Shown: piece after piece, positions 14,243 through 54,749 of the stretch
Numbering within the stretch: position 1 is the stretch's first letter
Layout: each line of letters begins with the position of its first letter
Assembly (NCBI GenBank): GCA_014728175.1
Contig: WJMA01000004.1
Span: forward strand, 1 to 54,811
Origin: Candidatus Fermentibacterota bacterium
GTDB lineage: Bacteria; Fermentibacterota; Fermentibacteria; Fermentibacterales; JCC-6
Direction of reading: 5' to 3'
Length of the DNA: 54,811 nt
Notes under the pieces: model-generated
What the model was told of the DNA's origin: nothing
The model's database searches: none
Seen by the model: the letters and a program-made list of their open reading frames with translations, nothing else
Made by a program: the position numbers and the translations under genes

Positions 14243-14273
14243 GGGGACGGGGGAATGATAAACACCTACTAAA
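14243..14273 (+). repeat. Dispersed repeat family B, copy 1
   Basis: GGGGACGGGGGAATGATAAA followed by a diverged AT-rich tail (CACCTACTAAA). It abuts the 5' end of the minus-strand ASST-like gene, leaving only its ribosome site between repeat and coding start. Confidence 0.85.
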
Positions 14274-14320
14274 ACGTACAATACTAACGGATGGGATATT
14301 CACACAAACCCGAGACGAAG

Positions 14321-14358
14321 ATCGGGTTCCGCCCCGAACGACGCAAGCGGAACCCGAT
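14321..14358 (-). terminator. Strong hairpin downstream of the 14383-14991 gene
   Basis: Perfect 12-bp inverted repeat ATCGGGTTCCGC (14321-14332) / GCGGAACCCGAT (14347-14358) with a 14-nt loop, 25 bp beyond the stop of the minus-strand membrane protein gene. No long T run follows on the minus strand, so it may stabilise the mRNA end as much as terminate. Confidence 0.5.
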
Positions 14359-14382
14359 AGCCTTCTTCTAACGCTTCTTTCT

Positions 14383-14991
14383 CTACTCGTAGCTTCTGGT
14401 GTCGTCCTCCTCTTCTTCCTCCGCATCCGACTCGGACTCTTCCCCTTGCTCACGGGGTTTGGGTTCAGGCGGGGGAGGAGAAGAGGGAGTTTCTTTGGGG
14501 GTCGTAGTGGGGCGCTCGGGCCGGGGAGCCGTGCCCGGTGCGGGGGCGGCAGGCTCGGCCGGCTGTTCGGGGGTTGCGGAAGGCTCTGGCCTGGCCGGTT
14601 GGGCCTGCGGTCTAACAGCTTCCTCCGCGCCCTCCCGATCCTTCATCAGGAAGGCCACCAGCACCTGCGCAATTGCGGCCAAGACAACCAGAATCAGCCC
14701 GAAGCCGACGCTGGCCGGGCTACCCGATACATCGAAGAAGTCGATTATCCCCACGACGAACGCAATCACCGCGGTGATCCATACGCCGGTAAGCGCGCCC
14801 TTGCTTATAGGGGTCGATCTGTCTCCTAGGAAGAAGGCAATAGCGCCGCCGATGGCAAAGAGCACGAAGGTGTACCAGCCGTCGGCACCCGTCCCGCTGG
14901 CAGTGACGGGCCCTATCTTAGCCCACGGCAGGAATGTCCCCAACATTCCCACGAGTGCAATGACAAATATCGTCAACCGCTTCTTCTCCAT
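14383..14991 (-). CDS. Four-helix membrane protein with Pro-rich acidic tail
   Basis: 202 aa. Four hydrophobic segments (about 5-24, 38-56, 67-85, 93-114) are followed by a low-complexity C-terminal tail of about 85 residues, first Pro/Ala/Glu-rich, then Ser/Pro, ending in a run of acidic residues and DDTRSYE. No family is recognised with certainty; the membrane part resembles small membrane proteins of unknown function. A clear AAGGAGGGG ribosome site precedes the ATG. The tail is probably cytoplasmic and disordered; this is inference. Confidence 0.7.
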   Translation of the reverse strand: MEKKRLTIFVIALVGMLGTFLPWAKIGPVTASGTGADGWYTFVLFAIGGAIAFFLGDRSTPISKGALTGVWITAVIAFVVGIIDFFDVSGSPASVGFGLILVVLAAIAQVLVAFLMKDREGAEEAVRPQAQPARPEPSATPEQPAEPAAPAPGTAPRPERPTTTPKETPSSPPPPEPKPREQGEESESDAEEEEEDDTRSYE

Positions 14992-15330
14992 AGCCGCCCC
15001 TCCTTAGGCTAGGCGTAAGTGTGCGTAAGTGTGTTTGATTAACCCTAAGATACAAACAGAACCATAACGGACCAGGTAGGATTAACCCAGGGACGTTCCT
15101 AGTGTTTTTGGCTTTTTCATGATGAAGGGCTATTGGGCCCGGAGAAGCAAGTTGCGGCCGTTTGGTTCATTTCCGACGCGTAGGCGGTGGGTAACAATCG
15201 GCTTCACGAGGATTCATATCCGGCTTTCTCCTATAAATCTTCCTGAGCATAGCGAACTCTCAGAACGGAGTAATCGTTGTTTGAAGAATAGCATTACCAA
15301 CGAGCAGGCAGGCGCTCCCGCGGGGGGGGA
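14992..15330. other. Gene-free region with a family A repeat
   Basis: 339 bp. It holds a short tandem (GCGTAAGTGT twice, about 15010-15030) and the family A repeat at 15090-15120. A 90-codon + strand frame here has no ribosome site and no recognisable protein, so it is not called. Confidence 0.5.
15090..15120 (+). repeat. Dispersed repeat family A, copy at 15.1 kb
   Basis: GGGACGTTCCTAGTG followed by TTTTTGGCTTTTTCAT, close to the copy at 6785. Confidence 0.75.
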
Positions 15331-15738
15331 TCAGACCCTGATCCAGGCCACCTTGCCGCGGCGCTTGATCGGCTTTTTTGGTATCAGGTAGTCACAGCCG
15401 TAGAGGATGCCTAGTACGAACCTGTTCACGAGGTACCCGATCCGGGTGTCGAGGCCGGTCGAGGTGGTCACCTTCATGCCCGAGAAGCCCAGGCCCCTGG
15501 CCTTTCTCAGTATCCGCAGACCGGAGAGCTGTGTCTCCATGGTTATATCGGTGATGAGGCACTGGAAGCTGCCGGCTCTCTTCTCCAGCACCAGCAAACC
15601 CTCTCGTGCCGACCTCGCCCGCTCCACCATCGCGCCGCGTCGCTCCAGGTGGGCCCGTATCACCTCGGCGTAGCGGTCGTTGTCGTCGACGAGCAGCACA
15701 CTGTCTACCCGCGGCGGCATTCTGGCTTCCCGGGGCAT
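15331..15738 (-). CDS. Single-domain response regulator (receiver)
   Basis: 135 aa; an internal ATG at 15720 is an equally good start. Receiver fold with the acidic pocket DDND, the phospho-acceptor Asp in CLITDITM, a TST stretch in beta4 and a Lys in LIPKKPIKR at beta5. The insert GYLVNRFVLGILYGCDY before the Lys is longer than usual. No output domain. It could take phosphate from the orphan hybrid kinase at 2.9 kb or another kinase, but the window does not show a partner next to it. Confidence 0.8.
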   Translation of the reverse strand: MPREARMPPRVDSVLLVDDNDRYAEVIRAHLERRGAMVERARSAREGLLVLEKRAGSFQCLITDITMETQLSGLRILRKARGLGFSGMKVTTSTGLDTRIGYLVNRFVLGILYGCDYLIPKKPIKRRGKVAWIRV

Positions 15739-15929
15739 TGGCCTCCGTTCCGAGTTTTGTAAGGAGGGAATATAGCCTAAGGGGCGCTATGGGTCAGACC
15801 GTTCGCTGGCGGTAGCCCAAAAGGTTCGTGGCTTGTTTTGGCCTTTTTGGTCGGTACCCTTATTTATCCGGGGATATGAGCTAAAGGTCTTTTGTTTCGT
15901 ACTGCTGCAAAACTAAGCGAGGAGATAGC

Positions 15930-16040
15930 GTGAAGAAGATCGGTATAATAATCTGCGATCGATACCGAACCTGCGCCGGCGGTAAGTGCTTCAGGTCCCT
16001 GCGGGCAGGAGAGGGTGCATTCGAAAGGTACGGCGACTAA
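15930..16040 (+). pseudogene. CGGC-domain protein, N-terminal fragment only
   Basis: A GTG at 15930 with a GAGGAG ribosome site opens a 36-codon frame beginning KKIGIIICDRYRTCAGGKC, the typical start of CGGC-domain proteins (normally about 110-130 aa, putative metal- or redox-binding cysteines). The frame stops at TAA after FERYGD, before the CGGC motif itself, and I could not find the remainder in any frame downstream. Either a truncated remnant or, less likely, a functional 36-aa peptide with three Cys (C9, C15, C20). Confidence 0.6.
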
Positions 16041-16161
16041 CCGGAGAAAAGCTTACAGTTTTGCTGACCGAGTTCCTTATTTGATACTATATAGTGAGTT
16101 ACCGGCGTCCTTGTTTTAAAAAGCGTCCTGGCTGGCATGCGGAGAGATGGATGATGTAATG

Positions 16162-16992
16162 TCAGCTGTCGCGAAGGCTTTCCAGTACGTCACGCACCTC
16201 GGTCGACATCTCCTCATTACCGGCATCCTCGAACAGCTGCGCCAGCGAGGAAAGCATTCTAACGTATTCCGGTAAATCCACGTCGACCAGCTCTGGGTAG
16301 TCCTCTGGATCGACTATTGCCCTGTGCAACGGACCGTTGGTCAGGTCGTACGGTATATCGTAGAGGTCCTCGAACCACTCCAGTGCTTCTTCCGGCGGAA
16401 CTCCGGATGCGACCAGCGGCTCCACGTGCTCTAAACCGGCCTTCAGCAGCACCACGCACATTTCCTTGGCGTAGGGATTGGCGTGCGGATAGATCAACGA
16501 CCATGCACGTTCTGCGATGGCCCTTATATCGCCCGAGTCGGCTGCCGCCCTCATGTCCTCCAGGGCTTCGAAGTAGTAGTCGTGCACCGCGGCCCGAAGC
16601 AGGCACAGCGAGCCGTTGGCGTCCACCTGGTAGACTCCTAGGTAGTGGTTGGCGGTGGCCGGATACTGCGAGTACACCGATAGCTCTCCGGTCTCAAGGT
16701 CCAGAGCGCATGGACCTTGGCTCTGTTGAACATGTCCGGGTAGTCAACGAACTCGCCCAAGGGACGATCTCACCTTCGCGGTCTGCCCCGAAGGCTATCA
16801 TGTCTGCGGTATCGGCCCGTTCGTACAGCAGGAAATAGCTGCTTTCCGTTTCGAGCAGTTCACCGCCGGCGGAGTCGTACCACAGCGGGGAAGGAGCGCT
16901 GTCTGAATCCGAGACCGGATCGAGCAGGTCGACGCGAATGTAGTGGACGTCTGAGGCGAGTAAACACAGGAGAATCGCAAGCGTTCAGTCAC
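16162..16992 (-). pseudogene. Frameshifted gene for a secreted protein of unknown function
   Basis: Reading the minus strand in three frames gives one continuous-looking protein: a hydrophobic signal-like start (AILLCLLASDVHYIRVDLLD), WYDSAGGELLETESSYFLLYE, then a shift near 16755-16765 into GEFVDYPDMFNRAKVHAL, a second shift near 16697-16712 into DLETGELSVYSQYPATANH, and an intact 170-aa C-terminal part ending RDVLESLRDS at 16162. A further slip near 16975 would be needed to join the likely GTG start that overlaps the stop of the FMN-binding gene. No family recognised. Either a decayed gene or several assembly errors. Confidence 0.6.
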
Positions 16993-17386
16993 CACCCTTC
17001 AGCGCCCGGTAGGTGGCCACCATTATGCACTGACTGCTGATGGTCGCTCCGCTTAGCGCGTCGACCTCAGGGCTCTGCGCGGCGATAATTCGATCGATGG
17101 TTTCCAGAGCCTCATATCCAGGGCCGCTGTGCTGATCTATCACCTCGATGTCCGTGATCGCATTATTCTGCACCGTTACCTCCAACTCGACCGACACGAG
17201 GAATTCCCCAAAGGATCCCTTGTACGTTCCGTCATCTATTTCCGTAAGGTCCACGTTGCCGACCTCGGCGGTTGCGAATACCTGTGACATTCGGTCGTAG
17301 CGGATCTTGAACCAGACGGCGACGGCAAGAAGAACAATTGCAATCGAGATAACTACGGTAAGGATCCTTCTGGTCCTTTTCTTCAT
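16985..17386 (-). CDS. FMN-binding domain protein, membrane anchored, putative covalent flavin carrier
   Basis: 133 aa. One N-terminal membrane segment (about 8-26) exports the rest to the periplasm. The FMN-binding domain (about 45-130) has DDGTYKGSFGEF, ITDIEVIDQHSGPGYEA and the attachment motif DALSGATISS; Thr115 of SGAT is the residue to which ApbE-type flavin transferases attach FMN in related proteins. No apbE is in the window. Good ribosome site AAGGGT. Upstream of the broken gene with which its stop overlaps. Role is probably extracytoplasmic electron transfer; the partner is unknown, though a flavocytochrome is encoded at 35.1 kb. Confidence 0.85.
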   Translation of the reverse strand: MKKRTRRILTVVISIAIVLLAVAVWFKIRYDRMSQVFATAEVGNVDLTEIDDGTYKGSFGEFLVSVELEVTVQNNAITDIEVIDQHSGPGYEALETIDRIIAAQSPEVDALSGATISSQCIMVATYRALKGGD

Positions 17387-17463
17387 CCGTGAACCCTTCG
17401 ATGGGGATGGAACAAACGCTTATGAATTGTTTGTATCTACTTGCAAAACATTGCATTACAAGG

Positions 17464-17491
17464 TTTCGTTAGTTTTTTTGATAAACGTCCC
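17464..17491 (-). repeat. Family A-like repeat end in inverse orientation
   Basis: Read on the minus strand it begins GGGACGTTTATCAAAAAAAC, closely like the right end of the 8629-8751 unit (GGGACGTTTTTCAAAAAAC). It lies 11 bp beyond the stop of the gene ending at 17503. Confidence 0.6.
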
Positions 17492-17502
17492 GGTCAGACC
17501 GA

Positions 17503-18051
17503 TCAGACCTTGAGGTCGGAGAGGTCCCGCACGCAGGCCTCCATGCAGCTCTGGAATAGCCTGGTACCGAGCTCCCTCACCTGCGAGAACTCGCTATCGT
17601 CGGCTTCGGACAAGTTGGCGAACCGTTTGCCCACCTTCTCGCTGTGGATCGCACCACCCAACTGCATGCTCAAACCGGATTGTACGAACTGGTCGTAGGA
17701 GCTGCGGTGATCCTGGGTCTTCTGTAGTATGTCGATCTTCTTGTCCGGCGTGATTCCCGGAAAGGCTTCCTCCAGTAGATCGGAGTACCTGCTTACGTAC
17801 ATTCGACCGAGCTGCCGGGAAAGCTCCTCCGAGTTTCTGCGCGATAGCTTCGGGGAAAGGCCAACGATGGTCAGATAAGAGGCGTACCATTGCAGGGCCA
17901 GTAGCGGCACTTGCACTTTCTTCTTGGTCTGCTCGGATATGTTGACGGCGTTCATGGCGTCCTGCCTGTAGCTGGGATCCAGGGCGTGCCTGGCCAGGAT
18001 CTCAGCGATTTCCTCCGGCTCGACCTTCTTCTTCCTCTTGAACAACCCCAA
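17503..18051 (-). CDS. Conserved soluble protein of unknown function
   Basis: 182 aa from a TTG at 18051 preceded by GGAGGAGG, giving the natural start GLFKRKKKVEPEEIAEIL; the longer frame up to 18189 runs through the ribosome site and is unlikely. Mostly helical and charged: a basic N-terminus, an amphipathic helical middle (VPLLALQWYASYLTIVGLSPKLS) and KKIDILQKTQDHRSSYDQFVQSGLSMQLGG split later. No signal peptide or membrane segment, and no family recognised. Its neighbours give no clear hint of function. Confidence 0.65.
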   Translation of the reverse strand: MGLFKRKKKVEPEEIAEILARHALDPSYRQDAMNAVNISEQTKKKVQVPLLALQWYASYLTIVGLSPKLSRRNSEELSRQLGRMYVSRYSDLLEEAFPGITPDKKIDILQKTQDHRSSYDQFVQSGLSMQLGGAIHSEKVGKRFANLSEADDSEFSQVRELGTRLFQSCMEACVRDLSDLKV

Positions 18052-18219
18052 TCTCTCCTCCTCCGGCTGAGCTGGGCCAACCGTCGCTCCGATTCGGGCA
18101 AACCCATACGTAAACATATATGAATTAAAAACGACCGTGGGTCGATATCTTCCCATGACCGGTGCTGGACGGCGTTGAAAAAACCTCAAGAACGGAGCAC
18201 AAGCGGTCGTTGGCCCAAG

Positions 18220-18684
18220 CTAGAGGAAGCTCTCACCCAGCTTCCAGACTTCCTCCTCAAGGACCATAAGTAGTGGGAACTCTTCCTCCGCTTCGGATAC
18301 GCTCAGGTAAACCGTGGCGGAATCTCCGGAGGTCTCGCACCTGACCACCAAGACGTCGGACCTGGCCGGAAGATTGCCCCGTAGCTGTTGCGAGTTGAGG
18401 ATGAGCTCAACCAGGTCCAAAGAGGTCCACTGCTCAATCTCTTCCGGAGGGAGTTCCTGACCCAACTGCGAGGATAATTGCTCCGCCGCCTCCTGGGGCG
18501 AGAGCCTGATCATCATGACCAGCATGTCCAGCTGGTCGCGATTACCCTGGGAGAGGCAGGACAAGAACGCTTCGGTATCGCCATCGTACACCGCGTCCAG
18601 AAATGTTTCAAAGCCCTCCTCGGGAGACGCGGCCAGGCCGAGGACGGGCAGCACGAGAAGGGCAAGCAGGTTTAGGGGCCTCAT
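18220..18684 (-). CDS. Small secreted protein of unknown function
   Basis: 154 aa with a signal peptide (RPLNLLALLVLPVLGLAAS). The mature part starts PEEGFETFLDAVYDGDTEAFLSCLS, which resembles NTF2-like/DUF4878-type domains that begin with a short helix and a solvent-exposed pocket; the assignment is tentative. Clear AAGGAG ribosome site. It lies between the 17503-18051 gene and the phosphoesterase lipoprotein on the same strand, gap 95 bp to the latter. Confidence 0.65.
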   Translation of the reverse strand: MRPLNLLALLVLPVLGLAASPEEGFETFLDAVYDGDTEAFLSCLSQGNRDQLDMLVMMIRLSPQEAAEQLSSQLGQELPPEEIEQWTSLDLVELILNSQQLRGNLPARSDVLVVRCETSGDSATVYLSVSEAEEEFPLLMVLEEEVWKLGESFL

Positions 18685-18779
18685 GTTGCTCCTTTCGGTG
18701 GGTTCGCTTTTGAGGTCTCAGCCGACTGTATACCGGTCCGCTGCTGCGGTTCCAGAGCCCTGCCGCCGTCCTCCGGCCG

Positions 18780-20855: not shown

Positions 20856-21101
20856 CGAATAACCTCCAGGATGATGAGCTTTTCGTACATATCAAAGCGG
20901 CATTCGCCGGAAATACCGGCCGGAAAGTATTGCACGAAACCGTTCCAGCACTACTCAAAGACTATTAGGGATTGGTTAAGCGCTCCCTTACGATACCTCG
21001 ACCCTCATTGGCATAGGCCAGCGCTCTTCGTATCCTCTCTCCGGCCAGAAGATAATCAGGATCACCCGCGGAAAGAGTACTCGAAGCGTAAGGGACCTGC
21101 G

Positions 21102-22055
21102 GTGAGCATTGCCCAGCCAACAAGAAGCGAGCAAAGGCACGTCCTGGTTACAGGTATCCACCGCAGTGGAACCACTTTCGTGGGCGCGGTGCTGGCCAAT
21201 GTGCCGGGTATGGGGTACGTACAGGAACCCTTCAATCCCGATTTGGGCATGCAAGGCATCGAGACCTGGTACCCGTACGTAAGAAGCGGAATGCCCGGGG
21301 AAGGACGTTACGCCAGGCTGGTGGAAAGGTTACTCGCCGGCAAGGCTCGTTACAAGAAAAGGCCGGGCAGACATGGAGGTATTCTGAGGTGGGTGGGGAG
21401 GAAGCTCTTCGGCAGCCGAGATTACCTCCAGTATCTGATGTCGACCAGGTTCTTCGGCTCGAAGAGGCTGGTGCTGAAGGATCCCATCGTCTCTCTGGCC
21501 TCGGAGTGGCTCCATCGGAGATTCGGGATGAAGGTTCTCGTACTGATGCGTCATCCGGCCGGTTTCGCCGCCAGCACCGCCAGACTGGGATGGGATTTCG
21601 ATTTCTCGAACCTGACCTCTCAGAGGCCGCTGATGGACGATTACCTGGGGGAGATACTTCGCCCTCTGGATGCGAAGTCCATGGCTCATCACGAAAGGGC
21701 CGGGCTACTCTGGAGATGCATCTACACCATCCTGGAGGAATTCATCCGGCGCAATCCGGAGATGAAGATGATGAAGCTGGAGGAGATCTCAAAGCAGCCG
21801 CTCTCCGCGTTCGAAGAGATACACCGATTCCTCGGCCTTCCCCTTACCGACAGCACGAAGAAGCTCATCGCGGACTCCACCAGCCCCAAGAATCCTCCGG
21901 ACGCTCCCGACGGCCAGCCTCACAGCCTGAAACGGAACAGCCGGAGCCTGGTCGAATCTTGGAAGAGGAGCCTCGATCCGCAGAATATAGAAAGGATAAT
22001 GGAGCTGGCCGGGCCCCTGGCACGGAAGTATTACCCTCGGGGGACGGGGGAATGA
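21102..22055 (+). CDS. Sulfotransferase family protein
   Basis: 317 aa from a GTG at 21102 with AAGGGA upstream; the longer frame from 20871 has no supporting site. The PAPS 5'-phosphosulfate loop is TGIHRSGTTFVG (about 17-28) and the 3'-phosphate strand is LVLMRHPAGFAAS. It would transfer sulfate from PAPS to a glycan or lipid; acceptor unknown. It lies apart from the sulfotransferase/glycosyltransferase cluster that begins 2.2 kb downstream. The last residues (GTGE) and the TGA stop lie inside a family B repeat, so the original C-terminus may have been replaced. Confidence 0.85.
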   Translation: MSIAQPTRSEQRHVLVTGIHRSGTTFVGAVLANVPGMGYVQEPFNPDLGMQGIETWYPYVRSGMPGEGRYARLVERLLAGKARYKKRPGRHGGILRWVGRKLFGSRDYLQYLMSTRFFGSKRLVLKDPIVSLASEWLHRRFGMKVLVLMRHPAGFAASTARLGWDFDFSNLTSQRPLMDDYLGEILRPLDAKSMAHHERAGLLWRCIYTILEEFIRRNPEMKMMKLEEISKQPLSAFEEIHRFLGLPLTDSTKKLIADSTSPKNPPDAPDGQPHSLKRNSRSLVESWKRSLDPQNIERIMELAGPLARKYYPRGTGE

Positions 22056-22070
22056 TAAACACTAAATAAA
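22040..22070 (+). repeat. Dispersed repeat family B, copy 2
   Basis: GGGGACGGGGGAATGATAAA plus CACTAAATAAA. The TGA within it is the stop codon of the sulfotransferase gene. Confidence 0.9.
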
Positions 22071-22075
22071 AGGTA

Positions 22076-26393: not shown

Positions 26394-26402
26394 ACGGCTG
26401 GC

Positions 26403-33580: not shown

Positions 33581-33611
33581 GGGGACGGGGGAATGATAAA
33601 CCCTAAATAAA
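33581..33611 (+). repeat. Dispersed repeat family B, copy 3
   Basis: GGGGACGGGGGAATGATAAA plus CCCTAAATAAA, about 30 bp upstream of the longest frame of the LpxL-like gene and beyond the stop of the next minus-strand gene. Confidence 0.9.
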
Positions 33612-33718
33612 TCTACATTCCGGGTCAGTACCGCCGGTTGAATATTCGTTGATCGATCCGTACCTACGATAAGGTAATTTCTCTAAAGCGTTGTCGAATA
33701 AGGCGCTAAAGCCTTACG

Positions 33719-34951: not shown

Positions 34952-35026
34952 ATGAAGGGCTTTTTCGAACGTCTCGCTTCCTCTGTAATCCATCCGATCC
35001 GGGGACGGGGGAATGATAAACACTAA
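34952..35026 (+). pseudogene. 5' gene fragment ended by a family B repeat
   Basis: ATG with an ideal GAGGAGG site 8-9 bp upstream opens KGFFERLASSVIHP and then enters the repeat (IRGRGNDKH, stop). The first 15 residues look like a natural protein start (amphipathic), but the family cannot be told. It may be a gene whose remainder was lost at the repeat, or a chance frame. Confidence 0.35.
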
Positions 35027-35031
35027 ATAAA
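35001..35031 (+). repeat. Dispersed repeat family B, copy 4
   Basis: GGGGACGGGGGAATGATAAA plus CACTAAATAAA; follows the 5' gene fragment at 34952. Confidence 0.9.
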
Positions 35032-35136
35032 CCGCAAAAACTGCGTAGCAGCTCTGGTCCATCATGCCCATGCAGTCGTCACCGCGATGACCGCGGAAGC
35101 CGGAAGGAGAATCCCATCGACACGGCAACCGAACGC

Positions 35137-39006: not shown

Positions 39007-39037
39007 GGGGACGGGGGAATGATAGGAGTCGAATAGG
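39007..39037 (+). repeat. Dispersed repeat family B, copy 5 (diverged tail)
   Basis: The first 17 bases match (GGGGACGGGGGAATGAT), while the tail has changed to AGGAGTCGAATAGG. Directly after the radical SAM gene. Confidence 0.75.
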
Positions 39038-39099
39038 CCGCCTTTGATCAGGCTGGGTATCAGGCGGAGCAACGATACAATCACCGGGATACCCCCGGC

Positions 39100-39948
39100 T
39101 CAGCCATCGTCCTTGCCGGTTCCCAAGAGCCTCTCGATGTAATGGATGAACATCTCCTCGCTCCATCGCTCCACGGAGGTCCTTTCCTCTCCGCGGACGA
39201 AGGGGAGCACGTCCCGGGCGGCCCGGCTGATGTCGATCTCCGCGATCCTGTCCTTCAAAGCCCCCTCGAGCCATTCCGGTGTGGCGTCAATTCCCGTGTC
39301 CTCCCAGGGGCCGGTCTGGTCCAGAGCGGATGACAGCAATGGATAGTCCGGGCGTACATCCCGCGAGCAGAGCCAGAGAAGATCGAACCAGTCCCTGCCC
39401 TTCACCCATGATCGGCACAGCAGAGCGTGGCATTTGAGGGCAAAGGAAGAAGGGAGATCGGCTGAGGTCACCTCATGGGGGAGGGGAAAGTCCAGGAATG
39501 CAGGCCTCATGCCTGCACCCTCGGGTGGATTGGTGTCGATCTCGAGCCGGATCCTCGTATATCCGGGGCGGCCGGAAGCGGGACGGACGTAGTCGGATTC
39601 ATCCGTGAGTAAAATGGCTCGTACCGCTCCGCGTTCTCGAGCCCCGCGGCGGATCTCCGGCTTCAATCCGAAGCGCCGGCAGGTAGCCAACAGCCCGTCC
39701 TGGTATTCATCCCAGTCAAAGGAGTCATCCGGAGCCCTCAGCAGGAAATCAAGGTCCTCGGAGAAGCGCGGAAGGGCATGTACGATCCTCAGCTCTGTGC
39801 CACCATGGAAGATGGCTCTCTCGAAGAAGCCCTGTGCAGAGAGCGAATAGAGAGCGATCTCCTGGACGGCCTCGCGGAATCGCTGCTGACGATACTCTTC
39901 CGTCTCCGAAGAGACATCTCCGAGACGCTCCTCGATAATGCGGTTCAT
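39100..39948 (-). CDS. AbiEii-type nucleotidyltransferase toxin
   Basis: 282 aa. The nucleotidyltransferase signature FHGGTELRIVHALPRFSEDLDFLL (residues 47-70 region; GGTELR at 49-54, SEDLDF at 63-68) identifies AbiEii/AbiGii-type toxins, which modify RNA ends with nucleotides. Later conserved positions include DTNPPEG and SSFALKCHALLCRSWVKGRDWFDL, the family's C-terminal catalytic Lys/Asp region. It overlaps the upstream AbiEi-like gene by 4 bp (ATGA), the usual antitoxin-toxin order. Likely phage defence or maintenance module. Confidence 0.9.
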   Translation of the reverse strand: MNRIIEERLGDVSSETEEYRQQRFREAVQEIALYSLSAQGFFERAIFHGGTELRIVHALPRFSEDLDFLLRAPDDSFDWDEYQDGLLATCRRFGLKPEIRRGARERGAVRAILLTDESDYVRPASGRPGYTRIRLEIDTNPPEGAGMRPAFLDFPLPHEVTSADLPSSFALKCHALLCRSWVKGRDWFDLLWLCSRDVRPDYPLLSSALDQTGPWEDTGIDATPEWLEGALKDRIAEIDISRAARDVLPFVRGEERTSVERWSEEMFIHYIERLLGTGKDDG

Positions 39949-40598
39949 GACTCACCTCCCAGCGCCTTTCTGAGCTTGTCGAGCAGCTCGCGCACCTGTG
40001 GTGACCTGTATCCCCGAGTGAGTTCGCCCAGCAGTTCGAGGTCCAGACCCTCCAGCAGCTCCATATCGATGCGCAGCCTGGCACAAAGACCGGAGATCCC
40101 CTCCCAGCTAAGCCTTCTGGAGTATAGGGTATCCCCAAGAGCCCTCTCCGGGCCGGCAATAACAAACGCATCGCCCCCTGATGACTCCCCGCCAACTCCC
40201 AGGTAAAAATCCTCAAGCCGCCATGGCAGCCTTCTGTAGACGAATTCTCCGAACCGATTCTGGAAGCTCCGGCTGCGTTCTTCCGGAATGCAGCTGGAGA
40301 CGACGGCGGGACTCTCCTGCAGCCAGCCATGGAAATCCAAGGCTGACTCCATGGAGACGTAGCCCCCGGAGACCATCATGTTGGCGATGAGATAGACACT
40401 CGGCCCTTCCCTGGAGACAGAGGGGTTGACCACGTACAGCCCCCGCTTCAGACGGATCAGCTCTCCACTCTCGAAAGCCCTGTGCAAAAGCCCCCACCTG
40501 CGGCCCTGGCTTCCGTCGACCACGTTCCGGACGGTCGAATTGGAGATGACTTTCCCACCCAGGCCTCTTTCCAGAAGCATCTCGGTCAGTGTTTCCAT
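39945..40598 (-). CDS. AbiEi-type antitoxin (transcriptional regulator)
   Basis: 217 aa from ATG 40598, which has AGGAGA upstream; an ATG at 40631 is less likely. N-terminal winged-helix part (RRWGLLHRAFESGELIRLKRGLYVV) followed by the AbiEi domain (YLIANMMVSGGYVSMESALDFHGW, ALGDTLYSRRLSW). AbiEi proteins repress their own operon and neutralise the nucleotidyltransferase without direct binding (type IV system). Translationally coupled to the toxin. The family B repeat at 40713 lies about 115 bp upstream of the start. Confidence 0.85.
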   Translation of the reverse strand: METLTEMLLERGLGGKVISNSTVRNVVDGSQGRRWGLLHRAFESGELIRLKRGLYVVNPSVSREGPSVYLIANMMVSGGYVSMESALDFHGWLQESPAVVSSCIPEERSRSFQNRFGEFVYRRLPWRLEDFYLGVGGESSGGDAFVIAGPERALGDTLYSRRLSWEGISGLCARLRIDMELLEGLDLELLGELTRGYRSPQVRELLDKLRKALGGES

Positions 40599-40956
40599 TA
40601 TTCTCCTATCATCAGCGCAAGTAATATTCAAAAATCATTCAGTAATGGCAAATACCTGCAGGAAACTTCCGCATCATGAAAGTATCATGCATAATTAAAT
40701 GGGTTTGGTAACGGGGACGGGGGAATGATAAACGCTAAATAAACTGCCTTAACTTGCCCAACATCATTAGTAGACCTTCGAATATGCGTATCTTGGAGCC
40801 TTCTGTTCTCCGTTTGGAGGCCACTCCATGCGCAAAGGCTGAGAATAGCCGCTACCAGATAACCCTTCGCAGCGCAGCCAGTCAAAGGTTAAATTAGTGG
40901 CTGATTCTGACAGAGCCAGCTTGCGATCCTACCTGGGCGTTTATTGGAGGGATTGA
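40599..40956. other. Divergent intergenic region with family B repeat
   Basis: 358 bp, AT-rich near 40600-40710 where the antitoxin promoter should lie. The imperfect repeats TCATGCATAATT and ATCATGAAAGTATCATG could be an AbiEi operator; this is inference. The family B repeat is at 40713-40743. Nothing else recognised. Confidence 0.4.
40713..40743 (+). repeat. Dispersed repeat family B, copy 6
   Basis: GGGGACGGGGGAATGATAAA plus CGCTAAATAAA, with flanks (TAAC before, CTGCC after) nearly the same as those of copy 7 at 42878, which extends the repeat to about 38 bp. Confidence 0.9.
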
Positions 40957-42377: not shown

Positions 42378-42893
42378 ATGAACCAAACGATCCGCCTGTT
42401 CGTTGCAGCCGCTCTGGCAGCGGGAGCCGTGTCCTGCGGAAAGAGCCTGGTTCCCGATATCGAATTCCCCGAAGACTACACTTGGTTCTCGGACAGCGCC
42501 CTGGGATACAGAATCGCCTATCCCGCGCACTGGCGGAAGGAGAAGGACCCACCTTTGACAGAGGCTCCCGATGTGGTTTGGGGTGGGGCCAGCTTCAAGA
42601 CTGTGCTGCACGACTCCCTGGAGGCCCACCTGTGGATTACCGTGTTAGGCCCCACCGACGATTTCAGGAGGTTCGTGGAGGAGGGCGAAGCAGAGAGGGT
42701 GGTCGTGGGCGGCCGAAGGGGATACGAATCCAAAATGTACCTGTGGGGCAACATGAACCGTACCGTGGTCTTTCCCGGCAGTGACCGCTACTTCTTCGTC
42801 CAGTGCGCGGCCGACCCAGAGGTATTCGACGACTTCGATGACATTTTCGATGCCATTTTTGAATCGTTCGAAGTAACGGGGACGGGGGAATGA
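42378..42893 (+). CDS. Small lipoprotein of unknown function
   Basis: 171 aa. Lipobox AGAVSC (Cys20). The mature domain begins YTWFSDSALGYRIAYPAHWRKE, a PsbP/DUF1795-like opening (a start often seen in small lipoproteins with a PsbP-type fold), and has FRRFVEEGEAERVVVGGRRGYE split near the middle. The last residues (GTGE) and the TGA lie inside the family B repeat; FDDIFDAIFESFEV just before is a natural C-terminal helix, so little may be lost. AAGGAG ribosome site. Confidence 0.7.
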   Translation: MNQTIRLFVAAALAAGAVSCGKSLVPDIEFPEDYTWFSDSALGYRIAYPAHWRKEKDPPLTEAPDVVWGGASFKTVLHDSLEAHLWITVLGPTDDFRRFVEEGEAERVVVGGRRGYESKMYLWGNMNRTVVFPGSDRYFFVQCAADPEVFDDFDDIFDAIFESFEVTGTGE

Positions 42894-42908
42894 TAAACGC
42901 CAAATAAA
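42878..42908 (+). repeat. Dispersed repeat family B, copy 7
   Basis: GGGGACGGGGGAATGATAAA plus CGCCAAATAAA. Provides the stop codon of the lipoprotein gene before it. Confidence 0.9.
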
Positions 42909-43003
42909 CTGCACAATTCAAAGGAGCATCAGCTGCAGCGTAGTCGCGCTACCCGCCGAGATGGTTCAGTCGGGAGAGAGAAAGAGCTTTCGAGTTCGAC
43001 TCC

Positions 43004-43866: not shown

Positions 43867-45132
43867 CTACCCAACTGGATTCGCCACCCGGCCCATGAAC
43901 AGGATGGTTCCGGTTAGCTCGTCGCGGACCAGGAACAGAAACGGCCTGTCCAGGACCAGCTCGACCGGAGGCTCCGGTATCGAGACGCATTCTACGGCCA
44001 TAACCACGGCGGTTGCCGCGGCCGCCTCTGTTCCCGTCTCGTCCACCTTTACGAAAGCCTTGTGTATCACTGCCGATATGAACAGCTCGGGCCGTCCGAT
44101 GAACCCGCTGAAATCAGCAGCCGCCGACTCGAAGGCATCCGGCATGCCCATGCCGGCCAGCACCTCCGACAGACCGAACGAGCTGGTGAACTCGAACTTC
44201 GGCATCGTCAGATCCACGCTGCGGCGGGACAGACTTATCGTGATGGCCTCCAAAGCTTCCCTGTCCAGGTTCCGCTCGAACTCCAGGATGTCCTCGTCCG
44301 GCATCATTATCAGCATGCTGCTCATGTTGTCGCAGTAGGGCAGGCTGATCGCCCTGCAGCCCATCAGCTCCCCGTAGGCGAACTCCTCTACCTGATGCAT
44401 CATGGGGACCTCTACGATCCTTCCGTCCAGGGTGTTGAACTCCCCGTCGGCGGTCATCCCCTCATCGAACTCGTACAGCCAGGAGCCCTTGAAGTAGACC
44501 GCGTTGGTCAGAACGACCCTGGTCAGGGCGGTTATAACGCCCGGGGGTATCAGGTCCCGTATCCTGTCCCTGGTCTTCTCGGCCACCCATTCGTTGATCG
44601 TCTGCCTAGACCCCTCCGGGTTCATCGTGAAGTCCAGGTTGGTGGCGACCGCCCCGTACTTGGACTCCACGAGCTCGGTGTACTCCTGCAGGAGGGGATA
44701 GCTCTCCTCGACCCACAGGGCGTTGGCGACCTCCAACGTAAGCGCGTCACCCTCGCCGTAGACCAGGGAGGCCCGATACTCCTCGCTCAGCTTCTCCTGC
44801 AGTGAAGCGAAGGCGTCGTGCAGCCCGCTCTGCGGAAGCGTGAAGTGCAGAACGTCGGCCATCTGCGACTCGGTGCTCCCCCTGGCCCCGGCCCAGGTCA
44901 TCCCCAGAGCCGTGGAGATGCTGTAGGGAGAGAAGAAGAGGTTGCCCTCCGTCTCTTCGCCACAGAGCACACCGAAGATGTCCAGCGCGAACTCCGTGTT
45001 GCCCTCCACCAGCTCGGGCATGTCGTCGGTCTCGAAGCCCGAGGCCACCGCGCTGAACAGAAGCACCGCGGCCAGCACTCCCGCCGCAATGTTCCATCGA
45101 CCCCAAAAGCTGACTGCGCTAACCGATGTCAT
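43867..45132 (-). CDS. Serpin (serine protease inhibitor), secreted
   Basis: 421 aa from ATG 45132 (GGGAGGT upstream); the open frame further upstream is not supported. N-terminal membrane/signal segment (about 12-30). The serpin fold is complete: EGNLFFSPYSISTALGMTWAGA, LTNAVYFKGSWLYEF, MPKFEFTSSFGL, and KAFVKVDETGTEAAAAT, the small-residue hinge expected of inhibitory serpins, at about 367. The scissile region (AVVMAVECVSIP) suggests P1 as Glu, Cys or Val. It would trap a protease at the cell surface. A family B repeat lies 78 bp upstream of its start. Confidence 0.92.
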   Translation of the reverse strand: MTSVSAVSFWGRWNIAAGVLAAVLLFSAVASGFETDDMPELVEGNTEFALDIFGVLCGEETEGNLFFSPYSISTALGMTWAGARGSTESQMADVLHFTLPQSGLHDAFASLQEKLSEEYRASLVYGEGDALTLEVANALWVEESYPLLQEYTELVESKYGAVATNLDFTMNPEGSRQTINEWVAEKTRDRIRDLIPPGVITALTRVVLTNAVYFKGSWLYEFDEGMTADGEFNTLDGRIVEVPMMHQVEEFAYGELMGCRAISLPYCDNMSSMLIMMPDEDILEFERNLDREALEAITISLSRRSVDLTMPKFEFTSSFGLSEVLAGMGMPDAFESAAADFSGFIGRPELFISAVIHKAFVKVDETGTEAAAATAVVMAVECVSIPEPPVELVLDRPFLFLVRDELTGTILFMGRVANPVG

Positions 45133-45569
45133 CTCGAATACCTCCCGAAGCTTATGCATTTCCTTAGCCGGTGATTCTACTCCGATACCACTCGGATTAT
45201 TCCGTTCTACGGGGACGGGGGTATGATAAAACCCGAATAAACCCTTATATATCGTCTGGTCATGGGCCGGAGCGTACCCCGCGTTCCTTACATAGCGCAG
45301 GGCCTTCGAACCAGTCATGGGGGCGGCCGCCCTGTTGGGCTCAGTCGTCCTCGGCCTTTATCCTTTTCGGTCGTGACCATACGTGTCGTTTTGAAGAAGC
45401 AGTGCCCCCAGCGTTTCACCCGGTCGCTCCGAGCCAAGCCTGATTGGGATGAAAGATTGATAAAGAGCCGGCCAAAAGACATGTTTGATCCGATATTGCT
45501 GGTGGGGAAAACTACAACCTCCGGCTGGCGTCGCCTCATGTCCGTAGGCCTTCCGGCGAGGAGGTGGCC
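45133..45569. other. Intergenic region with family B repeat before the Mrp operon
   Basis: 437 bp between the divergent serpin and PII-like genes. It holds the repeat at 45211-45241. Several short open frames lack ribosome sites. The operon promoter must be here, but no convincing -35/-10 pair was seen. Confidence 0.45.
45211..45241 (+). repeat. Dispersed repeat family B, copy 8
   Basis: GGGGACGGGGGTATGATAAA plus ACCCGAATAAA; one base change in the core (A to T at position 12). Confidence 0.85.
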
Positions 45570-47986: not shown

Positions 47987-48383
47987 TCTGGTCTCCCGGA
48001 AGCTGGCTCCCTTCATGCTGCTGTTCGGCCTCTACCTGCTCTCCTACGGGCACATGTCGCCGGGGGGAGGTTTCCAGGGGGGAGTGGTTATAGCCTCCGG
48101 CGTCATACTGCTGTTCGTAGCCCAGGGGGTGGGGACTACGGCATCGCTATTTCCGTTCCGGACCCTCTCTCTGGTGGAGGCCGCCGCCTTCCTGCTGCTG
48201 TTGGCTGCGGGGCTGGCGGGTCTGGCGGCCGGTGCCGGCTTCCTGGGCAACCCCATGGCCGGCGTGGACGTCCGCGCCGTGCCCCGGGTGAGCATGATAC
48301 TGGTCTACAACGTGCTCATCGGCCTCAAGGTCGGCGCCGGAATCAGCTTCGTGTGCATGTACCTCTTCCGGGAGGGCCGATGA
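47964..48383 (+). CDS. mnhB: Na+/H+ antiporter subunit MnhB/MrpB
   Basis: 139 aa with four helices. YGHMSPGGGFQGGVVIASG is the MrpB signature; LVYNVLIGLKVGAGISF follows. Overlaps the next gene by 4 bp. Confidence 0.95.
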   Translation: MKKTTILDLVSRKLAPFMLLFGLYLLSYGHMSPGGGFQGGVVIASGVILLFVAQGVGTTASLFPFRTLSLVEAAAFLLLLAAGLAGLAAGAGFLGNPMAGVDVRAVPRVSMILVYNVLIGLKVGAGISFVCMYLFREGR

Positions 48384-48718
48384 CCTGGATTCTGATCTGC
48401 GCGATCTTCGTAGTGGGCCTGTGGGGAATCACCCACCAGGCCAACATGGTGAAGAAGGTGATGGGCCTGAGCATCGCCAACAGCGCCATCATCCTGCTCT
48501 TCGTCTACTACGGCTCGCTGTCGGGAACCACGGCGCCCATAGAGGGCAGCGGGGACCCGATGGTGGATCCGCTCCCCCAGGCCCTGATGCTCACTGCGAT
48601 AGTGGTGGCGGTCTGCGTGATGTCCCTGGCCCTGGTAATCGTCTACCGGCTCTACCAGAGGTTCGGAACCCTGGACATCCGCGGGGTCGAGCGGGGGGCA
48701 TGGAAGCTGAATGACTGA
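48380..48718 (+). CDS. mnhC: Na+/H+ antiporter subunit MnhC/MrpC (NuoK-like)
   Basis: 112 aa with three helices. GLSIANSAIILLFVYYG holds the place of the NuoK glutamate helix, and DPLPQALMLTAIVVAVCVMS is typical of MrpC. Overlaps MnhD by 8 bp. Confidence 0.94.
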   Translation: MTWILICAIFVVGLWGITHQANMVKKVMGLSIANSAIILLFVYYGSLSGTTAPIEGSGDPMVDPLPQALMLTAIVVAVCVMSLALVIVYRLYQRFGTLDIRGVERGAWKLND

Positions 48719-50375: not shown

Positions 50376-50530
50376 CGACCGAGAGAAGCCCGCAGACCGA
50401 GGAAGCATTCCAGCCACGGCCCGGAGGGCACTCCCCGGACATGCCCCCTCAAGCCCTTCGGAGATCAACCCATTATTATCTTGAACGAGGCGAATGCTGG
50501 ATCAGTACAACACCGATGGGGATGACAGCG

Positions 50531-51091
50531 ATGAGCAAGATGGATACGGAGTACCTGGAGTACCTCTGGCCCATGCGGCACTACCTGGTAACGTGTGGAG
50601 ACGAACAGCAACCCAACATTATAGCCGTGGGTTTCTGCATGCCCATCTCCAGAGAGCCTCCCATGGTCGCCTGCGCGATAGGCAAGCAGGCCCATTCGAC
50701 CCAGCTCATCCGACAAACGGAGGAATTCGTCATCAACGTTCCCACACAGGACCTGGAACGCCAGGTCTACTACTGCGGCTACCATTCCGGAAGAGACGTA
50801 GACAAGTTCGAACAGACGGGGCTGACACCCAAGCCTGCCCGCCACCTGGCCACACCGATAATCGAAGAGTGCGTAGCGCACCTGGAGTGCCGTCTCGAAA
50901 GGGAAGTCGACACCGGCGACAAGGTCCTGTTCATAGCCACCGTGCTGGACGCTTACGCAGACGCCGATGTCGTTCGCGGAGAAAGGAAGCCCGAATACGC
51001 ACTAGGCAGCTTCCCCGAGAAGGTGTACGGAGGGAGATTCCAGCACCCGAACAACGAGAACAAAGAGCGATCGACCGAAGGTGACGAATGA
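50531..51091 (+). CDS. Flavin reductase-like FMN-binding protein
   Basis: 186 aa; ATGs at 50522 and 50531 are both possible. Split-barrel flavoprotein of the flavin reductase/flavoredoxin family: PMRHYLVTCGDEQQPNIIAVGFCMPIS, EFVINVPTQDLERQVYYCGYHSGRDVDKF split, IEECVAHLECRLE. Such proteins reduce flavin with NAD(P)H or transfer electrons through bound FMN. Its stop overlaps the start of the next gene. Confidence 0.88.
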   Translation: MSKMDTEYLEYLWPMRHYLVTCGDEQQPNIIAVGFCMPISREPPMVACAIGKQAHSTQLIRQTEEFVINVPTQDLERQVYYCGYHSGRDVDKFEQTGLTPKPARHLATPIIEECVAHLECRLEREVDTGDKVLFIATVLDAYADADVVRGERKPEYALGSFPEKVYGGRFQHPNNENKERSTEGDE

Positions 51092-51510
51092 CAATGGGAA
51101 ACGAGCTGTCTTCCGGGCCCCAGCAGCCCAAAGCAGCCGAAAACACGAATGCATTGCTGACCCGCCAGGAGTTCTAAGAAGCATCACGCGCCCAACGAAA
51201 ACGCGAAAACAAGCTCGGCCTGCTCGTCGTCTGCATCTGCATAGCTCCACTGCTGGCCGGCATGTTAGTCGAGGGATCGATCGAATCTCTGGGCTCCATC
51301 GTAAGACGCATAGCCATTGCCTTGCTCTTCGCTCCGGGCGTAATCGCAATAGTGATGTACCTGCGTTTCGTCTTCAGAAGCAGAAAAGAGATGGGCCTGA
51401 ACTGTCCTCACTGCGGCAAGAGCCTCCTGGCGGCAAACGGGAGGGATTCGGTCACCCTGGGGAAGTGTGAGAGATGCGGCGGGGTGCTGTTTAGGGAGGA
51501 TGGTGACTAG
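51088..51510 (+). pseudogene. Two-helix zinc-ribbon membrane protein with an in-frame stop
   Basis: An ATG overlapping the flavin reductase stop (ATGA, 51088) opens TMGNELSSGPQQP and reaches TAA at 51175-51177 after LLTRQEF. In the same frame the sequence continues uninterrupted: EASRAQRKRENKLGLLVVCICIAPLLAG (TM1), a second helix, and a zinc ribbon with CPHCGK and CERCGG, ending at 51510. The frame, charge pattern before TM1 and translational coupling suggest one 140-aa gene broken by a single nonsense codon. Alternatives: restart at ATG 51262 (82 aa, one helix) or a sequencing error. Confidence 0.65.
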
Positions 51511-51705
51511 CAGTTCCCTTAGGATGTTGCACATCTGAGTCTACATCAACTGGCGGATCAGTCGAAAGGAACTCTAGAAATCACTTCCTAATCGTTGACG
51601 GAGGTTACTGGACGAGAATATCTTGAATTAAGCCGGTATTTCATCGAAGAGAAAATGCACAGTAGGGGGAATTACATAAAGGCTTTGGCTTGGAAGGAGC
51701 CATTG

Positions 51706-52920
51706 ATGTCCAACACTAGTAGAATAATCTGTCTCCTATTTCCTATACTTGCTTTTGCATCAATTGCCATGACTGTTGGTGAGTGGGAGGAGCAATACAG
51801 TCCTACTACATACAATCTCCTCGGTGTTCACTTCCCAGATTCACAAAACGGTTGGATCGCGGGAGATGGAGAGATTATCCTGCATACCGGGGATGGTGGC
51901 TCAAGCTGGATAATCCAATATGTACAAGGACAGGACAAGTACTACTCCTCCATCTTCTTCGCTGATAGTCTAAATGGTTGGGTATGTGGAACCCACTATA
52001 CAATGCGTCATACAGAAGATGGTGGGTGGAACTGGGATCTCCAATTAGAAGGAGGATCAGTTCTTCCCCGCTTTCATGATGTATGGTTCCTTGATGCGCT
52101 CGATGGGTGGGCCGTAGCCGACGACGGAATTATCCTGCATACACCTAACGGGGGCTCTGACTGGGCGCAAAAGACAAGTGGTACCACTCAGTACCTTTTT
52201 GGAGTTTGCTTTGGAAGTGCTGACACCGGTTATGTGGTTGGCGGTGAAGGCATAATCTTGAGGACGATAGATGGTGACACTTGGGAGTCGTGCACAACGC
52301 CAACGGATGAGTATTTCTACGGTGTTGGATGTTACGGCACTGACGAAATCTGGGCTGTCGGTAGCAACGGGACCATTGTACATAGCGGCAACGCAGGGGA
52401 ATCATGGGCGTCGCAGACATCTGGTTCAATGAATACCCTCTTTGATGTCGGAGTGGTTGATCAGGAAAAGGTGTGGATCTGCGGTGATGAGGGAACATTT
52501 CTATATACAAGCAACGGCGGCGCAACTTGGGAGAATTACAGCGTTGGCGGCCCAGGATATATCTACAGTATAAGCATGATTGATGAATGGAACGGGTGGG
52601 CTGTTGGGGAATATGGCAGATTATTTCGTTATACAGACTCAACGGCTGTTGAATCGCCGAAACTTACCGAGATTAACAGCAATATATCTGTCGAGATAGA
52701 CGGCAATCCGATCTCAAACGCGCTTCACCTTGATATCAACATGTCCTCAGGTTCTGCGACGTTACGCTTATTCGATTTGACTGGTAGATGCAATCTTGAA
52801 GCTGAGATACCTGAATCCGGCATGTACTCATATCCTTTGGATTGTACAGATGGCGCTTATCTTCTGGTGTTGGACTCTGGAAGCAGAAGGTATGCTTGCA
52901 AGGTGATGGTGATAAATTAG
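51706..52920 (+). CDS. Secreted YCF48-like beta-propeller with C-terminal sorting-like tail
   Basis: 404 aa from ATG 51706 (AAGGAG six bases upstream). Signal peptide (SRIICLLFPILAFASIAM). Seven or so YCF48/BNR-type repeats of the form GWIAGDGEIILHTGDGGSSW, NGWVCG, DGWAVADDGIILHT, GYVVGGEGIILRT, EIWAVGSNGTIVHS. The last 75 residues (NPISNALHLDINMSSGSATL then RLFDLTGR and YLLVLDSGSR) resemble the type A sorting/FlgD-like tail of proteins exported by type IX or similar systems. The gene is visibly more AT-rich than its neighbours (ata, ttt, gtt codons), which suggests separate origin. Confidence 0.82.
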   Translation: MSNTSRIICLLFPILAFASIAMTVGEWEEQYSPTTYNLLGVHFPDSQNGWIAGDGEIILHTGDGGSSWIIQYVQGQDKYYSSIFFADSLNGWVCGTHYTMRHTEDGGWNWDLQLEGGSVLPRFHDVWFLDALDGWAVADDGIILHTPNGGSDWAQKTSGTTQYLFGVCFGSADTGYVVGGEGIILRTIDGDTWESCTTPTDEYFYGVGCYGTDEIWAVGSNGTIVHSGNAGESWASQTSGSMNTLFDVGVVDQEKVWICGDEGTFLYTSNGGATWENYSVGGPGYIYSISMIDEWNGWAVGEYGRLFRYTDSTAVESPKLTEINSNISVEIDGNPISNALHLDINMSSGSATLRLFDLTGRCNLEAEIPESGMYSYPLDCTDGAYLLVLDSGSRRYACKVMVIN

Positions 52921-53264
52921 TAAATACCCAAGATGGCCGACTCATTAGCAAGACTTGGCAATAAGGTACACCGTTTAAGCTTGTGGACTTTCTATCTGGT
53001 GGTTACTCATCTGTAATCACGGTCCCCATGTGGTGTGTAGGTATTGAATAGGCTCCTCACGAGTGGCAGCAACGGAATTGTTGCCGGCCTGCGGGATGAG
53101 CTGGCGCAATCCGCTAAGCATTAGTGATGCAGTCTGAGCGCCTGGGAAGCAGAAGCTGGGGTTCCCAACCGTTCAGCCCGAAGAGTTTGCCGTAACGTAC
53201 GCCCTTTCAAAATCGTTCATTTGCTTGCCCTAAATAGCTGAACCAGTTATATTTCTGTTGCATC

Positions 53265-53392
53265 AGGAAGCTCCGCAGGGTGCGGAGCTGACAACCGAGG
53301 CGGGCAGGCCCACGGTGGCTGGCCGAAAGGCCGATGCGCGGATGGAATCCGAAAGAAACCTGCGCCTGCACCGCTCCGTTCGGAGCGGTTTT
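53265..53392 (+). ncRNA. Structured RNA with terminator, HEARO/omega-RNA-like
   Basis: A chain of hairpins is visible on the + strand: a perfect 9-bp stem AGCTCCGCA/TGCGGAGCT with GGG loop (53269-53289); ACCG/CGGT enclosing GGGCAGGCCC; GGCC-GAAA-GGCC with a GNRA tetraloop (about 53321-53332); CGGAT-GGA-ATCCG; and a GC-rich terminator. No protein frame fits. The order, the GAAA hairpin and the GGATGGAATCC segment recall HEARO RNAs (the omega RNAs of IscB nucleases), but this is from memory and no IscB gene is in the window. Could equally be an unnamed small RNA. Confidence 0.5.
53371..53392 (+). terminator. Intrinsic terminator of the structured RNA
   Basis: CCGCTCC GTTC GGAGCGG followed by TTTT: a 7-bp GC stem with a tetraloop and U-tract, the strongest terminator seen in the window. 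It lies 50 bp from the 3' end of the convergent HEPN gene. Confidence 0.8.
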
Positions 53393-53442
53393 CCCGTTTC
53401 AAGGTTGCCTGCTGCAATGCTGTATGCCTGGTTCCGTCCAGT

Positions 53443-53886
53443 TCATTCGGCGCTGTCCTCATCAAGCGTTTCCAGCCACTGCCTCGTAATGCGCAGTACA
53501 TCCGAAGCCCTGGAGATAACCTCACGGGACTGCTCGCTCGAGATCAGCTGGTTACCCTCGTATACGGCCCTGTTTCGTATCATCCTTATCCTGTCCAGAA
53601 ATTCAATCGTCTTACTGCTCAGCCCGACAGTCAAGGCAAGACTCCGAATCTCCCTGTAATGTCCCCCGCCGCTCCTGGGAACCCTGTATCCACATCTGAA
53701 CAGAGCTGCGCGAGCGCAGTTGAGAGCGGCCTCGTAACCCATTCTCAATCTCCAGGGCGGATCGAGCCCGGCAAGGCGTGCCTGGCGGAGATGGCCCTCG
53801 GCAGCATCCAAGAGGGTCTGAATCTCATGCATTGATATGTGCTGTTCTTCAATCCAGTGGTTGGCCAGCCAATCTCTCAAGCTCAT
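53443..53886 (-). CDS. HEPN-domain toxin
   Basis: 147 aa, all helical. The HEPN motif is RMIRNRAVYEG (R104-N105 to Y109), a R-N-x-x-x-Y variant of the Rx4-6H RNase motif; GYEAALNCARAALFRCGYRV is the conserved first helix pair. It overlaps the upstream nucleotidyltransferase gene by 38 bp. In HEPN/MNT systems the HEPN protein is an RNase or target whose activity is silenced by AMP addition from the MNT protein at the conserved Tyr. Confidence 0.85.
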   Translation of the reverse strand: MSLRDWLANHWIEEQHISMHEIQTLLDAAEGHLRQARLAGLDPPWRLRMGYEAALNCARAALFRCGYRVPRSGGGHYREIRSLALTVGLSSKTIEFLDRIRMIRNRAVYEGNQLISSEQSREVISRASDVLRITRQWLETLDEDSAE

Positions 53887-54445
53887 GCTCGTCCCCTACG
53901 ATGAAAACCTTGTCACCTCTTGCCACCCTCCACAGGAAGCCTCTCTTCTTGAGTTTACCCGCGAATTCGCGTGGTTTCAAGATAGATGGATTTACCTGCC
54001 TGCCCAGGTATTCTTCGGCCTCCGCAAGAAGCGGCGAAAGCTCCTCCAGCCCCATATCTCCGACCAGAAGCAGGTCGATGTCACTGGAGGGTTCAAATCG
54101 ACCCGAGGCGAAAGAACCGTATATGAACGCCAAGTCAATATCGTCTATGAGCGGACCGAGCGCATCCAGGAATACCCCTTTCGGCAGACCCAATCGCACT
54201 ACCAGATTCTTTAGATCCTCGAATACGGGGCTTTCGGGATTCGCCGAAAAGTGCTTCTGATTGCCGGAGGTGCGCAGCGACACGATTCCGAGATTGTGCA
54301 GGCGGCCCAGTTCCCTTGCGACGTTGGTCGAGTCCAAGGCCAGTATCTTCCCCAGCTGCCGTACATAGAACCATTCGGAAGGATGGGTGTACAGCCATTC
54401 CAAGAGCTTGGCCCTGCATACTGAACCAAACAAGACCTCTAGCAT
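53849..54445 (-). CDS. MNT nucleotidyltransferase antitoxin with N-terminal winged helix
   Basis: 198 aa. Residues 1-75 form a winged helix (FYVRQLGKILALDSTNVARE, LHNLGIVSLRTSGNQKHF). The minimal nucleotidyltransferase domain has the catalytic GSFASG (110-115) and SDIDLLLVG (121-129). The fused DNA-binding domain suggests it also represses its own promoter. A GAGG site lies six bases before the ATG. Start overlap with the HEPN gene gives the usual antitoxin-first order. Confidence 0.9.
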   Translation of the reverse strand: MLEVLFGSVCRAKLLEWLYTHPSEWFYVRQLGKILALDSTNVARELGRLHNLGIVSLRTSGNQKHFSANPESPVFEDLKNLVVRLGLPKGVFLDALGPLIDDIDLAFIYGSFASGRFEPSSDIDLLLVGDMGLEELSPLLAEAEEYLGRQVNPSILKPREFAGKLKKRGFLWRVARGDKVFIVGDEHELERLAGQPLD

Positions 54446-54494
54446 ATTTAACCTCGCAGCAGTTTTGCAGTATCATTCACTTCATTCGTAGCAT

Positions 54495-54523
54495 ATATTA
54501 CTACGATATTGCATTTGACGCAA
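54495..54523 (-). promoter_or_regulatory. Putative promoter of the HEPN/MNT pair
   Basis: On the minus strand TTGCGT (54523-54518) and TAATAT (54500-54495) are separated by 17 bp, about 50 bp upstream of the MNT start. The region is AT-rich compared with its surroundings. Assignment by resemblance to sigma-70 elements only. Confidence 0.35.
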
Positions 54524-54666
54524 GTATTTCAGTGAGCATTCACCTGTCCAATCAGGCCTTAGCTTTCAGAAAGCTTCCCGGCGACCATACCCAGAACGAT
54601 ATGGGCGGTTGATAGGCCAGGTTCGGCGAACCCCGACCTTAGGCGGACGGTCCGCATCGCCCCTGC

Positions 54667-54717
54667 CTAACTGAGGAACTTCCTGATCTCCGACTCCACC
54701 TTGTCCCAGGACAGATT
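54667..54717 (-). pseudogene. C-terminal gene fragment next to a family B repeat
   Basis: Reading out of the repeat on the minus strand gives PNLSWDKVESEIRKFLS and a TAG stop. WDKVESEIRKFL has the look of a true C-terminal helix, as found at the end of nucleotidyltransferase/AbiEii-like proteins. Only 17 codons remain; upstream of them is the repeat, so the rest of the gene seems to have been replaced. Could be chance. Confidence 0.3.
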
Positions 54718-54718
54718 C

Positions 54719-54749
54719 GGGGACGGGGGAATGATAAACCTCAAATAAT
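54719..54749 (+). repeat. Dispersed repeat family B, copy 9
   Basis: GGGGACGGGGGAATGATAAA plus CCTCAAATAAT, followed by CTGCA as in copies 6 and 7. Confidence 0.9.

Follow-up and report, generated by a model that had tools for sequence, protein, structure and literature searches.

The window, by which we mean the whole 54,811-bp stretch of DNA analysed, is contig C7 in full, from a 2.6-Mb genome in 67 contigs. It carries nine copies of a repeat of ~35 bp (hereafter family 1), all on the + strand, where 0.02 would be expected by chance on both strands. Over 20 bases, seven of these copies are exact, that at 45211 has one mismatch and that at 39007 has two; the first-pass annotation had placed nine copies at these positions and on this strand, and correctly so. 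It had overlooked three units of a second, related family, also on the + strand, at 8629, 12733 and 15089. The units in the window are as follows.

8629..8657, + strand: single unit, second family, the end type (GGGGACGTTCCTAAAC...) that goes with the Y1 gene of contig C65
12733..12761, + strand: single unit, second family
14243..14277, + strand: single TIR-type unit, family 1 (sequence match, consensus)
15089..15117, + strand: single unit, second family, diverged (4 mismatches)
22040..22074, + strand: single unit, family 1, providing the TGA stop of ORF 21180-22055 (sulfotransferase domain)
33581..33615, + strand: single unit, family 1 (sequence match, consensus)
35001..35035, + strand: single unit, family 1, in a divergent gap (sequence match, consensus)
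39007..39041, + strand: single unit, family 1, with a degenerate tail, 8 bp past a radical-SAM/B12-binding gene
40713..40747, + strand: single unit, family 1, in a divergent gap (sequence match, consensus)
42878..42912, + strand: single unit, family 1, providing the TGA stop of ORF 42378-42893
45211..45245, + strand: single unit, family 1, upstream of a serpin gene and with one mismatch in the core
54719..54753, + strand: single unit, family 1, 93 bp off the contig end

The information per position defines a family 1 consensus of about 35 bp, GGGGACGGGGGAA[T/C]nnTAAAcnnnnAATAAAyyGy, with conserved TAA triplets at positions 17-19 and 28-30. Outside the unit it drops to noise, bar one pyrimidine immediately 5', which is present in 44 of the 49 units found genome-wide, and flank comparison revealed nothing longer in common among the window copies past the unit. 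The AT-rich tail that had been ascribed to every copy is degenerate in the copy at 39007. There is no hairpin within a single unit, as had been noted before (0.0 kcal/mol on either strand, two units folded). The further claim that the repeat stops all three reading frames stood for two of them: every window copy stops one frame at position 14 and a second at position 28, and two frames are stopped in 49/49 units genome-wide, but the third is stopped as well in only four window copies (22040, 33581, 35001 and 40713) and in 15/49 units genome-wide, being open in 34/49.

Among the genes of the window, two units in direct orientation (39007-40747) flank an AbiEii-type nucleotidyltransferase toxin gene (39100-39948) together with the neighbour that overlaps it (39945-40598), and the serpin gene (43867-45159) is complete (1e-114) and matches diverged DNA of contigs C32 and C63.

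Genome-wide inventory and transposase genes

The 49 family 1 units of the genome comprise 31 single units and 18 units in nine inverted pairs. Eight of the pairs span 88-134 bp and, being short and noncoding with inverted ends, resemble MITEs in these respects, which the 31 single units do not; the three pairs that were folded form long hairpins. The ninth pair spans 761 bp and encloses a single-copy Y1/HUH transposase gene (contig C61, 85978-86604, 208 aa). The inverted ends of this element, at 85882(+) and 86642(-), read GGGGACGGGGGAAynnTAAACnnnnAATAAA, and no tnpB lies between them. The first-pass annotation had linked the repeat to Y1/HUH transposases of the RAYT type, had proposed searching for a Y1 gene flanked by the same ends and had stated that no such enzyme was present. 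The search located exactly such a gene on a different contig of this genome, which bears out the link and leaves the stated absence true of the window but not of the genome.

The C61 protein matches Y1_Tnp (PF01797) at 2e-13, above the cut-off, and the NCBIfam model REP_Tyr_transpos (NF047646) at 7e-18, under its curated 80-bit cut-off. Its HUH motif is NHVH and its tyrosine motif is YVERNP (Y---NP), the latter pattern being tabulated as a class 2 signature (PMC6006769). We also found a second Y1 gene (C65:108362-109507, 333 aa), which adjoins an rpsD-like gene (assigned by reading the translation) and lies between inverted ends AGGGACGTTCCTAAACCTTTT that recur at 23 places genome-wide, mostly singly. 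The gene upstream of it has a TAA stop that falls inside the left end of the element. The genome has two TIRYTs, each with its own repeats and with mostly solitary, well-conserved ends.

Gene calls came from a home-made hexamer model, not a standard caller, and the predicted coding share is 92% of the sequence in the unit-bearing contigs, the contigs loaded. Just 1/49 units is wholly contained in a predicted gene, the rest being intergenic or reaching past a gene end; convergent, divergent and unidirectional gaps hold units alike, and 12 genes terminate inside a unit, on its stop codons. No copy was detected in viral contigs. Elsewhere, two copies on contig C26 have 90 bp in common, and at C26:3467 a tRNA-23S-5S cluster is followed, 44 bp past its 5S rRNA gene, by a single unit. 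Contigs C25, C26, C43, C53 and C63 share a dispersed repeat some 200-440 bp long, with copies about 70-90% identical, and its C53 copy is truncated exactly at the start of a family 1 unit. No clean empty site was found within the genome for this unit (C53:2075), the repeated element stopping exactly at the unit without resuming behind it.

Known systems and the origin of the units

TIRYT elements are widespread and little studied, and we know of no TIRYT with demonstrated activity. The names TIRYT (terminal-inverted-repeat tyrosine transposase, one branch within the RAYTs) and TIRtron refer to a transposase with terminal inverted repeats in place of GTAG REPs, and TIR elements have been published as single, dimeric and grouped (Di Nocera et al. 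2013, PMC3733652). Some TIRs, but not all, carry the end motif GGGG[AT][CG]A[CG] (GGGGWSAS; Quentin et al. 2018, PMC6006769). The elements described here resemble TIRtrons in having a Y1/HUH gene between inverted GGGGAC-headed repeats without a GTAG hairpin, and in the dispersal of the same repeats as singles and dimers (here 31 singles and 8 short pairs). They differ in that position 7 of the end is G where GGGGWSAS has A (the family 1 end GGGGACGG fits at 7/8 positions, and many TIRYT-type loci likewise have G), in that singles outnumber pairs and form a dense one-way cluster, and in an AT-rich tail that is long and conserved, with TAAA at 17 and 28. The anatomy is already known as TIRtron/TIRYT, and the repeat is not a new system; what is unusual is that most ends are single and well kept, and that the orientation of units is locally coherent.

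Two other known systems fit less well. Short non-autonomous intergenic repeats tied to a single-copy Y1 enzyme, with inverted pairs that fold into long hairpins as REPINs do, are also the hallmark of REP/REPIN sequences and their RAYTs (PMC3116915), but the GT[AG]G foot of a classic REP/REPIN is missing (no GTAG in the consensus), as is the unit hairpin in the two units folded; moreover, singles here are not more diverged than pairs. The Y1_Tnp domain and the single-strand chemistry expected of it are shared with IS200/IS605, from which the element is set apart by the Y---NP motif of class 2, whereas class 1 TnpA has Y---Q, and by ends that are inverted repeats and not subterminal hairpins, the folded single units being unstructured. 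The gene is also single-copy, in an element that lacks tnpB.

We regard the repeat, with considerable confidence, as the terminal recognition unit of a TIRtron, seeded genome-wide by the C61 Y1/HUH transposase, whose activity is predicted. The enzyme would cut and join single-stranded DNA at the GGGGAC end and would seed the genome with hairpin-forming pairs as well as single ends, the eight short inverted pairs resembling non-autonomous miniatures. Insertions within genes would be lost to selection and those in gaps and at gene 3' ends would remain, which may explain why almost all units lie between genes or at gene 3' ends. The TAA (17-19, 28-30) or TGA (14-16) of a unit, on becoming the stop of a neighbouring gene, may make an insertion tolerable. 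The 35-nt unit, as top or bottom strand, offers a concrete substrate on which the cutting preference of the enzyme could be assayed.

Single units could instead be remnants of decayed inverted pairs and not single-end insertions, in line with what has been published on REP singlets, which show greater divergence and have been interpreted as defunct remnants (Bertels and Rainey 2011, PMC3116915). One single unit, C51:103130, does retain a recognisable degenerate inverted partner. However, no remnant of a partner lies within 300 bp of the other 30/31, and conservation does not differ between single and paired units (permutation p 0.95), which makes decay a rather unlikely origin. We infer that single units arise in their own right, perhaps through single-end insertion by the TIRtron enzyme; solitary conserved ends are at odds with the REP-derived view that only paired units replicate.

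Clustering and strand orientation

The window holds 9 family 1 single units in 55 kb where 0.65 would be expected (P 3e-8 by length; 9e-6 with a rough intergenic weighting). TGA occupies positions 14-16 in 9/9 window units versus 6/22 single units elsewhere, and nearest-neighbour similarity within the contig is above chance (p 0.003 for all units, 0.012 for single units); the mean pairwise distance among window copies is marginally low (p 0.05). Together, the enrichment, the shared TGA and the nearest-neighbour similarity point to local spread of one sub-lineage, and the dense one-way set is most likely the outcome of local re-insertion of that sub-lineage on the same strand.

Replication direction was judged by GC skew, strand-balanced third-position skew and gene strand, and 141-bp overlaps of contig ends (C14-C51 and C26-C25) partly check the skew signs, the C14-C51 join being consistent. 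Family 1 single units were called as 6 leading, 9 lagging and 16 uncallable, the last including all those in the window. Callable single units of the second family with <=3 mismatches were 9 leading and 1 lagging, and 4-mismatch copies add three lagging. All 12 window units of both families are on one strand (+), and they keep this orientation while the third-position skew flips sign within the window. The skew itself runs from about +0.04 on the left to -0.10 near the right contig end, as at a replication terminus. On contig C51, both families switch orientation together, without a matching change of skew. Where single units of either family have neighbours within <=15 kb, orientation agrees in 20/23 cases (p 0.0002), or in 9/12 with the window excluded (p 0.07). 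Orientation may be coherent regionally, not replichore-wide, a result we grade as no more than suggestive, since the window was chosen for its uniformity.

The two TIRYT enzymes might insert solitary ends in preference to pairs, favouring one strand consistently across tens of kilobases regardless of family, a tentative idea with the chances against it; if true, orientation domains would be a record of the locally exposed strand. Likewise, the coherence, if upheld in finished genomes, would report local single-strand exposure. That the units insert at replication forks into the template of the lagging strand, as had been suggested from the one-strand bias, would produce a strand bias genome-wide and is quite improbable. 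It would suit an HUH/Y1 enzyme, some relatives of which target this template (PMC6006769), as well as the single strand occupied by both families in the window and the leading-strand excess of the better-conserved second-family singles. Yet family 1 singles show no replication-strand bias, the two families lean in opposite directions and flip together on C51 with no matching change of skew, and the 4-mismatch copies dilute the second-family bias. The first-pass annotation had named random orientation genome-wide as evidence against its proposal; this is what family 1 displays, with the regional agreement persisting.

Relatives and distribution

The family 1 repeat was absent from the 59 other genomes searched, which gave two weak 3-mismatch hits without the GGGGAC core. 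That the unit acts on nearby genes as a regulator or terminator, such as a universal stop or an operator, is highly improbable: genes do end in units and nearly all units are extragenic, but the repeat is missing from these 59 genomes, with no sign of the conserved sites in distant relatives by which it was to be recognised as regulatory, its orientation relative to genes is inconsistent, the two single units folded form no hairpin, most units leave the third frame open, and the unit also bounds the C61 transposase gene.

A scan of bacterial genomes revealed relatives of the enzyme at 79 loci in many phyla. GGGGAC-headed inverted ends, often GGGGACGCTACCC, were present at 15/31 of the loci examined, in several phyla, and these ends recur through those genomes as singles, pairs and groups. 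Other genomes of the same taxonomic family lack the repeat itself but have orthologues 51-56% identical to the C61 transposase, and the seven examined have ends of the GGGACGGAGG type with an AT-rich tail, often with AAATAAA. In the genomes searched, copies of the GGGACGGAGG type are mostly pairs of about 41 or 102 bp. A 41-bp pair is present in the 3' flank of a tRNA-Leu gene in genomes G017 and G023 and absent there in G021. This presence and absence, together with the orthologues that have their own ends, indicates on sequence comparison that elements of this kind have been gained and lost, and that ends and enzyme have diverged together. For a single unit on contig C51, a search through the adjoining protein for an empty site in relatives returned no usable homologue. 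At one tRNA flank, a pair of the 102-bp type is found in three relatives (G017:C14, G010:C64 and G021:C394), and a 41-bp palindrome in a changed context in a fourth (G023:C37), a difference that may reflect either a central deletion or a re-insertion at one site.
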